Source: an uncultured bacterium
Lineage (GTDB): Bacteria; Cyanobacteriota; Vampirovibrionia; Gastranaerophilales; Gastranaerophilaceae
NCBI GenBank assembly: GCA_902777385.1
Contig: CACYTP010000011.1
Coordinates: 1 to 62,051 of the forward strand
Direction: 5' to 3'
Length of the DNA stretch: 62,051 bases
Part shown: piece by piece, positions 15,226 to 39,681 of the stretch
Layout of the letters: every line of letters starts with the position of its first letter
Numbering within the stretch: the stretch's first letter is position 1
Position numbers and translations under genes: made by a program
Notes under the pieces: generated by a model
Told to the model about the DNA's origin: nothing
Seen by the model: only the letters and a program-made list of their open reading frames with translations
The model's database searches: none

Positions 15226-16035
15226 TTAATAATCCATTTTCCAACCACTTTCCACAATTCTTGCGGCACAACCCAAACCTTGAGACCAGCGACATCCGTC
15301 TTTTTCTTTAGAACAGCATAAATATAAACCCATAGAATTTGAACCTTTTTTCCAATATTTTTCTGAGTTATCTAAATTACCTGTAAAAGCCAGTGAAGTT
15401 GCTTGTCCTCTATCGGGGAAAAGATGCCCATGATCGTCAAAATAAAATGTAAAAACATCACGACCATATTGATTTGGATTTTTTTCACCATTTACATCAA
15501 TTTCAACACTACCACAGATAGTTTTCATGCTTGATAAATTTGCATACGGTGCTTCTCCGCAATTATAATTACGTTCAGAAAAAAACTGAACAAAAGCCCC
15601 ATTTTCTAACTCTACTGCAGCCCAGCGAAATCTTTGTTGAGTCGAATTTGCACCCTCCAAATAGGTTTTATAATACTTTTCAGTTAATTTTCCATCAGGA
15701 CAATAATCATAGGAACTTCCTTCGCAAACTGCTCTATTAATTTTAACATGTTTTTTCAGATAATCTCTGACAAATGGTCTGAAAAAGGACATATTATAAG
15801 TTGCTGAACCCTCAATAGAACGACCAAAAGAAGTATACGCCAAACTTCCCCCGGCATCTTCTGCAATTTGTCCAAGGGCATTTTCAAGAATTGATACATT
15901 TGCTTTTAACTGATTAACAAGAACTTGTTTTTGATAATTTTGTATCAATGCAGGCAATGTCATAGCCGCAACTACACCGATAATACCGAGGGTGATTAAG
16001 ACTTCGGCAAGAGTAAATGCGGCTTTTTTCCTCAT
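15226..16035 (-). CDS. Type IV prepilin-like (pseudopilin) protein, gene 1
   Basis: 269 residues from ATG 16035: MRKKA then FTLAEVLITLGIIGVVAA, the prepilin peptidase site (cleavage before F) and the N-terminal methylated pilin helix. The soluble part is Cys-rich and contains IDVNGEKNPNQYGRDVFTF, a DxNG..PN..G.D motif like the Ca-binding loop of GspG-type pseudopilins. The two other pilins here share that motif and the ending Cys-hydrophobic-DGW (here ESGWKMDY). The frame stays open upstream through a 249-bp repeat (16036-16284) as far as the poly-G cassette, so a longer product starting at TTG 16263 or, after a one-base G-tract change, at ATG 16372 is possible. The 16035 ATG has no Shine-Dalgarno because the repeat ends right at it. 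Confidence 0.8.
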   Translation of the reverse strand: MRKKAAFTLAEVLITLGIIGVVAAMTLPALIQNYQKQVLVNQLKANVSILENALGQIAEDAGGSLAYTSFGRSIEGSATYNMSFFRPFVRDYLKKHVKINRAVCEGSSYDYCPDGKLTEKYYKTYLEGANSTQQRFRWAAVELENGAFVQFFSERNYNCGEAPYANLSSMKTICGSVEIDVNGEKNPNQYGRDVFTFYFDDHGHLFPDRGQATSLAFTGNLDNSEKYWKKGSNSMGLYLCCSKEKDGCRWSQGLGCAARIVESGWKMDY

Positions 16036-16284
16036 GTCATTGCGAGGAGCAAACAGCTTTGCGACGAAGCAATCCAGCTTTTTTGCAATAACTGAGAATT
16101 TTTGCTTCGCTCTTTTATCTATATTTCTGCAATCTAATGGCTGGATTACTGCCTTGGATTTCTTCCACGCTCCGAGAGTTTCGCTACCTGCACTATGTGC
16201 AAATCGCTCAATCTCGTTGCTATTCGGTACAAGTACCGTACAGAAATCCGCTTCGCAAATCAAGCCTTTGATTTGCTCGTAATG
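16036..16284 (-). mobile_element. MITE-like element with TGTCATT(G/A)CGAG ends
   Basis: About 249 bp bounded by TGTCATTGCGAGGAGCAAA (from 16036) and its inverted counterpart TTTGCTCGTAATGACA (16269-16284). It carries no gene. It belongs to the widespread CATTGCGAGGAGC...GACGAAGCAATCC type of dispersed repeat. The half nearest 16284 matches 61932-62051 closely over about 110 bp. It is inserted directly before the prepilin start and stays free of stops in the prepilin frame. Confidence 0.75.
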
Positions 16285-16301
16285 ACATGTGTCCGCATTA
16301 G

Positions 16302-16347
16302 TAAAATCTTGTAAACCCTTACTACGAGAGGATTTTACCCCCCCCCC
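16302..16347 (-). repeat. Poly-G leader cassette, copy 2
   Basis: Ten G (16338-16347) followed by the TAAAATC...GATTTTA inverted repeat (arms 16302-16308 and 16331-16337) with the same loop as copies 1 and 3. Confidence 0.85.
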
Positions 16348-16372
16348 TGCACATAAATACAGTTATACTCAT
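16322..16372 (-). other. Short leader ORF across the G10 tract of prepilin 1
   Basis: AGGAGG, then ATG (16372), 16 codons and TAG (16322-16324): MSITVFMCRGGGKILS. The G tract lies within the reading frame. With nine G, the frame would run GGVKSSRSKGLQDF and continue without a stop through the element into the prepilin. Confidence 0.6.
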
Positions 16373-16395
16373 AGTTTCAATCCTCCTTTTTTAAT

Positions 16396-16424
16396 AGTAT
16401 AGCATATTTTCTACAGTTATTCAA
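16396..16424 (-). promoter_or_regulatory. Promoter of prepilin 1 leader
   Basis: Minus-strand TTGAAT (16419-16424), a 17-bp spacer and TGC-TATACT (-10 at 16396-16401), about 25 bases before the leader ATG. Confidence 0.65.
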
Positions 16425-38652: not shown

Positions 38653-39681
38653 TTACCACGGATAATCGTCTTTTATCTGCCAGCCATCCATGAATATTAC
38701 TGCTAAACAAGCTATGCCCTTTTTAGCTTTATTGCAAAAATAATCATTGCCGGCACTCAATATTGTTGCCCTTGGATTACTTCCACCTGCATCAATCCAA
38801 GCAGGTAAAATTTTCCCTTCATATTCTTTTGACGCTGCTCTCTTCGTTTGCGACAAATACTGTAAACAAAAGACATCCCTACCAACTTTATTAGGACCTC
38901 TTTGTCCGTTGATATCAAAAACAATGTATACCTGCTTAGGATGGTCAACAGAAGTAGTGTACGCTTTTAAAGCTATATATGTTCCATCTGCAAGATAAAA
39001 ACAATATGAGTTATTATCATAATTTTTATCATGACTAAAACGTTGACCATTCAATCCATATATAGGATATGCACAATCATCCGAATTATTATTTTCACAT
39101 ACCCTTGCAACTTTTATAAACGGTATTACATATCTGTCTGCAAAATATTTTGCTGTTGCAAAACTATTACCACTTTGTATTTCCCAACCAACAGTATCTC
39201 CATACTCGGACATTGCCATCATCGTTGTATTAGTCAAAATTGAATAAACTTTTTTTATTTTGGAAACAGTTTCTTGCTTTTGGTAATTATTAATCACAGT
39301 CGGCAATGTCAACGCCGCAACCACACCGATTATACCGAGGGTGATTAAAACCTCCGCCAAAGTAAAGGCGGCACGACGAGGCTTTGCAGACTGAGCTACG
39401 TGCGTAGCACCTTCGGCAAGGGTAAACGCAGCTTTACTATCTCTACACACTTTGTCATGCCGAACTTTACAAAGCGAACCACCGCAACGAAGTGAGGATG
39501 AGTGAGCCTGTATGCAGAGCTGTTTCGGCATCTGACCCATGGTACTTGCTACGACCTCCTCTTTTTGAGTACTACCTAAAGTTTTACTGTGGCTAGATCC
39601 TGAAATAAATTCAGGATGACGTACTCTAAAATCCCGCAAACCCTTACTATGAGAGGATTTTACCCCCCCCCCTAAGGTCAA
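38653..39681 (-). CDS. Type IV prepilin-like protein, gene 2, with repeat-derived N-terminal extension
   Basis: The pilin core runs from FTLAEVLITLGIIGVVAA near 39370 to DGWQIKDDYPW and has the shared FDINGQRGPNKVGRDVF motif. The upstream frame is open to TTG 39681 at the G tract but is mostly repeat sequence: RHPEFISGSS comes from a CATCCTGAATTTATTTCAGG repeat. The prepilin motif is present twice: KAAFTLAE, then GATHVAQSAKPRR, then AAFTLAEVLITLG. There is no ATG near the core; GTG 39450 would give a 265-residue protein with the first KAAFTLAE close to its start. The full frame is listed because the start cannot be decided. Confidence 0.65.
   Translation of the reverse strand: MTLGGGVKSSHSKGLRDFRVRHPEFISGSSHSKTLGSTQKEEVVASTMGQMPKQLCIQAHSSSLRCGGSLCKVRHDKVCRDSKAAFTLAEGATHVAQSAKPRRAAFTLAEVLITLGIIGVVAALTLPTVINNYQKQETVSKIKKVYSILTNTTMMAMSEYGDTVGWEIQSGNSFATAKYFADRYVIPFIKVARVCENNNSDDCAYPIYGLNGQRFSHDKNYDNNSYCFYLADGTYIALKAYTTSVDHPKQVYIVFDINGQRGPNKVGRDVFCLQYLSQTKRAASKEYEGKILPAWIDAGGSNPRATILSAGNDYFCNKAKKGIACLAVIFMDGWQIKDDYPW
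39395..39408. repeat. Small palindrome inside the duplicated prepilin motif
   Basis: GCTACG-TG-CGTAGC sits in the stretch coding GATHVAQ between the two FTLAE copies, suggesting that a small palindromic repeat was inserted at the start of the pilin helix. Confidence 0.5.
39448..39620. mobile_element. REP/MITE-like element with GTCATxCxGAA ends
   Basis: About 170 bp. The left end is GTCATGCCGAAC (39454 region) and the right end is TTCAGGATGAC (39611-39620), inverted versions of GTCAT(G/C)C(C/T)GAA. Internal hairpin-like copies include TTTCGGCATCTGAC and ATCCTGAAATAAATTCAGGAT (the latter a near-perfect palindrome). No gene of its own; it lies between the poly-G cassette and the pilin core. Confidence 0.55.
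39627..39672 (-). repeat. Poly-G leader cassette, copy 3
   Basis: Ten G (39663-39672), then the TAAAATCC...GGATTTTA inverted repeat (arms 39627-39634 and 39655-39662), with a loop differing from copy 1 at a few bases. Confidence 0.85.

Follow-up and report, generated by a model that had tools for sequence, protein, structure and literature searches.

Why does a gene with a complete set of expression signals run, a few codons after its start, into ten consecutive Gs and a stop, while a prepilin lies in another frame beyond the tract? The question is raised by a locus in the window, as we call the whole 62,051-nt stretch of DNA analysed here (contig CACYTP010000011.1, from an uncultured bacterium of the Gastranaerophilaceae). 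The first-pass annotation had described a promoter, a Shine-Dalgarno (SD) sequence, an ATG, the G10 tract and an early TAG; reading the minus strand, we found each of them in its place (Table 1). It had also held that the frame reached with 9 or 12 Gs is free of stops into the prepilin, and this proved correct. That frame starts with VKSSRSKGLQDF..., runs without a stop for 370 codons to position 15229 and contains MRKKAAFTLAEVLITLG, with a match to N_methyl (PF07963) over the cut-off. Below, tract lengths that put the prepilin in frame with the ATG are called ON and the others OFF. The window has nine (overlapping) matches to G8 compared to 0.17 expected by chance.

Table 1. Features of the G-tract leaders and prepilin genes in the window
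Feature	Position	Strand	Basis
-35 box TTGAAT	16419..16424	-	sequence
-10 box TATACT, 17-nt spacer from the -35 box	16396..16401	-	sequence
Shine-Dalgarno AGGAGG	16382..16387	-	sequence
ATG start of the tract mini-ORF	16370..16372	-	sequence
Mini-ORF at the assembled G10, reads MSITVFMCRGGGKILS	16325..16372, then TAG 16322-16324	-	sequence
G10 tract, proposed slippage switch; ON lengths 9 or 12	16338..16347	-	
ON-frame ORF from tract to prepilin, 370 codons and stop	15226..16338	-	
Dispersed repeat with 14-bp inverted ends, inserted within the leader; no stop in the ON frame	16033..16289	-	
Prepilin MRKKAAFTLAEVLITLG..., 269 aa if the internal ATG is the start; that ATG has no SD	15229..16035	-	
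Second window copy of the module, G10; its gene is cut by the contig end	174..183	-	
Third window copy of the module, G10, which is one G above an ON length	39663..39672	-	
ON-frame ORF of 336 codons, with the prepilin, at the third copy	38656..39663	-	

The product of the window gene has the two features of a type IV prepilin, an N-terminal methylation/cleavage motif and, following it, a long hydrophobic helix. Both PF07963 and TIGR02532 matched over the cut-off, a helix of 52 residues was predicted (mean pLDDT 79), and T2SSE-family ATPases are encoded in the same genome. No named pilin or pseudopilin subfamily was assigned; GspG, ComGE and others matched the N-terminus only, below the cut-off. 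A Foldseek search with the prepilin head gave no match at E<=0.001. Within the genus we found no orthologue of the gene, the nearest relative being a paralogue (L073) at 62%. The inverted ends of the dispersed repeat in the leader are GTCATTGCGAG...CTCGTAATGAC, and parts of this repeat recur genome-wide.

The first-pass annotation understated the case, as the window switch is one of a genome-wide family. When the leader was searched against the genome that contains the window (2.32 Mb in 37 contigs), 39 matches were returned, and the SD-ATG-polyG leader stands at more than 30 places. The genome has 36 runs of eight or more Gs, nearly all of them within the module and few outside (L089 and L101). 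Each copy consists of a promoter-like box, an SD, an ATG, 4–10 codons, a tract of G8–G15, a conserved segment, a variable stretch, often with dispersed repeats, and the prepilin. At the -10 position other copies have boxes resembling TATAAT or TTATAAT. The genome has 58 N_methyl matches; thus, about half of its prepilins are tract-bearing. Assembly breaks were observed at or near module loci (the ends of contigs C10, C11, C14, C25 and C28 of the window's genome, G000, and many contigs of G014), so the true copy number may be higher.

Beyond this genome, the SD-ATG-polyG pattern was found in 42 of 145 genomes and in 14 of 41 genera of the family, with up to 70 copies per genome, compared to almost none for a reversed-pattern control. 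In the same class but outside the family, 73 genomes were sampled; 69 lacked the pattern and four had one copy each. A by-eye look for SD/anti-SD pairing showed that CCUC after the tract is absent from some genera.

Two further observations concern the surroundings of the tracts. At eight loci (L077, L083, L086, L091, L104, L155, L161 and L162) an in-frame insert, AAFTLAEGATHVAQSAKPRRAAFTLAEVLITLG, duplicates the prepilin motif; it resembles a mobile repeat inserted into the prepilin signal with the frame left intact. In contig C14 (L089:1190-2400), a G10 tract lies in frame in the signal peptide of a TonB-family protein, which is possibly another switch in a different type of gene.

The second frame is coding, as the first-pass annotation had suggested. 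The frame was open from the tract to the prepilin motif in 127 of the 149 loci having at least 700 nt downstream. For the 80 loci with leaders of at least 30 codons (6712 codons in all), the ON frame had no stops, compared to 391 and 597 (988 together) in the other two frames. It was therefore open in 80 of 80 loci versus 1.5 expected by chance, while either of the other frames was open in none. At L073 and L081, the tract leader continues directly into FTLAEVL with no internal methionine. Across species, the ON frame of 44 OFF loci was devoid of ATG, GTG and TTG codons between the SD and the prepilin motif; for these loci, translation that begins at the ATG and crosses the tract would thus be the only visible route to protein. 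In the 33-nt conserved leader segment after the tract, a synonymous excess was not clear, the copies being too alike for this test.

We made a census of 132 loci in 12 species with the frame open from tract to prepilin, the lengths being those of the assembly consensus, which may hide mixtures. At 73 loci the tract had one G too many, at 41 one too few, and at 18 it was in frame (ON). The most frequent length was 10 where 9 or 12 is ON, 9 and 11 where 10 is ON, and 10, then 12, where 11 is ON. Shuffling the lengths among all loci gave an expectation of 42.7 ON loci against the 18 seen (P<5e-5), and shuffling within species gave 25.7 (P=0.014). The global P value is optimistic because paralogues share ancestry; of the two, the shuffle within species is the conservative test.

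Mutational equilibrium alone, without selection, was rejected because tract length depends on the residue class that is ON. For Campylobacter, an insertion bias at 8–9 G and a deletion bias at 10–11 G are reported (PMC4085013). A bias of this type combined with removal of ON lengths explains why the tracts cluster near 10 and why each locus falls on its particular side.

The bodies of the prepilins are under purifying selection. Most orthologous close pairs, OFF/OFF pairs included, had dN/dS of about 0.06–0.24. Tract length varies among related genomes, and the frame is gained or lost with it. For example, L072 (G12, OFF) and L154 (G10, ON) are orthologues with 94.7% DNA identity, L100 (G12, OFF) and L150 (G11, ON) share 94.3%, and L097 and L159 form a third such pair. 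Among the 20 copies considered in the window's genome, none was ON from an ATG start. One copy (L095, contig C17, near 42967) no longer has the ATG, but at G10 a TTG is in frame with its prepilin; this copy is the only candidate ON copy of this genome.

Phase variation, proposed by the first-pass annotation, is well supported by the coding second frame, the purifying selection on the prepilin body, the avoidance of in-frame lengths and the differences in state between orthologues. The loci resemble known slipped-strand phase-variable genes in that homopolymer length sets translation, length and frame differ between genomes, and OFF genes are intact and under selection. We consider it likely that this large prepilin family is under slipped-strand phase variation with OFF as the default, the G10 tract being a contingency switch in the leader.

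In the proposed mechanism, ribosomes would start at the ATG that follows the SD. With the tract at its assembled length, they would exit it out of frame and stop within a few codons, with no prepilin made. Slippage during growth that adds or removes Gs at replication would put the prepilin in frame (9 or 12 Gs at the window locus), and the full leader and prepilin would then be translated, so that ON loci would yield prepilin protein. The ON state of each gene is probably present in rare cells only, after such a gain or loss. Since each prepilin has its own tract, switching within a population would produce a wide range of pilin combinations, while in the typical cell most loci would be OFF. 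The advantage may lie, for example, in host attachment or in escape from phage or immunity.

Other readings of the tract were weighed against this one. Rather unlikely, in our view, is a reading in which the SD-ATG-polyG mini-ORF serves the prepilins as a portable control cassette, acting through RNA-level or ribosomal slippage or through attenuation, with a low, noisy output from every out-of-frame prepilin and DNA switching as a secondary effect. For the held-out species G021, we predicted beforehand that at least 80% of the loci would have a prepilin fused to the leader; only three did, all OFF, and the remaining parts of the prediction held on those three fused loci only. At 17–18 of 21 loci, the tract mini-ORF (G11) stops and a terminator-like hairpin follows, and the prepilin comes with an SD and ATG of its own. 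The frame-switch mechanism is therefore inapplicable to those loci, and the cassette can exist without frame fusion. The arrangement of mini-ORF and terminator hints at the attenuation variant. The order of elements is uniform at L314–L333 of this species: the G11 mini-ORF, a conserved 45-nt element ending in CCTCCG, the terminator-like hairpin, a promoter-like box and the prepilin with its own SD-ATG.

Programmed slippage, in which RNA polymerase or the ribosome slips at a set rate, the out-of-frame gene yields low, steady prepilin, and the DNA is kept out of frame to limit output, appears unlikely. It would fit the fast ending of the resident OFF frame, within 8 codons past the tract in 96% of cases compared to 62% for the other OFF frame; this early stop could also mean that the OFF state is tight or that the mini-ORF is functional. 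It would also fit the dominance of one frame per species (10/10 in G033, 16/20 in G078, 15/18 in G148 and 17/20 in the window's genome) and the retention of the same frame where tracts are interrupted: L104 and L105 have interrupted tracts, yet their downstream frames are intact although such tracts can hardly slip, which speaks against phase variation. However, the required shift is +1 in G000, G003, G007 and G148 and -1 in G033 and G078, some copies are ON, and orthologues differ in state. The frame bias would also be expected from drift to about 10 Gs with removal of ON lengths, given the bias reported for Campylobacter (PMC4085013).

Neither a conserved stem-loop after the tract nor a single direction of shift, the two marks of a frameshift site that were looked for, was found. 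The first-pass annotation had noted an 8-bp inverted repeat after the tract and offered a structured frameshift or leader-peptide control as an alternative. The repeat is indeed present at the window copy, but only two of the genome's 32 copies have 8-nt arms. Fold z-scores were near 0, with no folding excess in species with more than a few loci. Control through a stem-loop is thus unsupported, and stem-loop recoding was rejected.

It is very improbable that the leaders are dead relics, with prepilins starting at internal ATGs by the mature sequence (MRKKAAFTLAEV at 16035 in the window) and the tract spread without function by duplication or repeats. Many loci do have an internal methionine right before the motif, some are plainly broken, and the unfused prepilins of G021 have their own SD and ATG. 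On the other hand, the internal ATG of the window gene lacks an SD, and 50 OFF loci, L073 and L081 among them, have no internal start. A relic would not be expected to keep its ON frame open across varied inserts, nor to have tract lengths that follow the frame, yet both are seen. Purifying selection on OFF genes and the changes of state between orthologues are also hard to reconcile with dead leaders.

Also very improbable is a second start that opens the ON frame elsewhere (e.g., a TTG 4 nt after the ATG) while the ATG mini-ORF competes or regulates: a TTG or ATG lies in the ON frame near the SD at 13 of 20 OFF loci of the window's genome, and L095, without the ATG, is in frame from a TTG, but the window locus has no such codon upstream, the region near the SD is without one at 93 of 114 OFF loci, and at 44 none occurs up to the prepilin motif.

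Slipped-strand phase variation, the preferred reading, can be compared with three known systems. The closest is that of the sortase-dependent pili of Bifidobacterium breve (PMC9187656), also a gut bacterium with a G-tract ON/OFF switch that is commonly OFF. There, a tract of 10–12 Gs lies early in the first pilus gene, and its length decides whether the second ORF is read as a continuation of the first. B. breve differs in having sortase pili, two loci in each strain and measured length mixtures, as against type IV prepilins, about 10–70 loci per genome in tract-rich species and lengths from assemblies here; in B. breve, the annotated length can differ from the majority length (PMC9187656). 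Campylobacter jejuni has about 29 polyG/polyC loci per genome, with poly-G of 8–12 in coding sequence and translational switching (PMC4965091). They serve diverse surface-modification genes, whereas nearly all tracts here lie in one gene family behind a common leader. The vlhA genes of Mycoplasma gallisepticum (PMC6258824) are likewise a large paralogous surface-protein family in which each member has its own repeat and most are silent; unlike here, there is no reading-frame switch, as the promoter carries GAA repeats and transcription is active at exactly 12.

By analogy, the mode of action would match simple-sequence-repeat phase variation, with differences in scale (dozens of paralogues), gene family and lineage. 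In the literature searched, which covered few subscription papers, we found no earlier description of such a system and no paper linking phase variation to Gastranaerophilales; one paper, on flagellins, links it to Melainabacteria.

The best-known poly-G contingency loci are those of pathogens, which act on surface genes of many kinds. In the uncultured gut bacteria studied here, which are related to Cyanobacteria, a single proposed switch design recurs in front of dozens of type IV prepilins, and in-frame lengths are depleted. Standard annotation will give most such genes a wrong start or call them broken. The finding suggests that surface diversity in these commensals is generated pilin by pilin.
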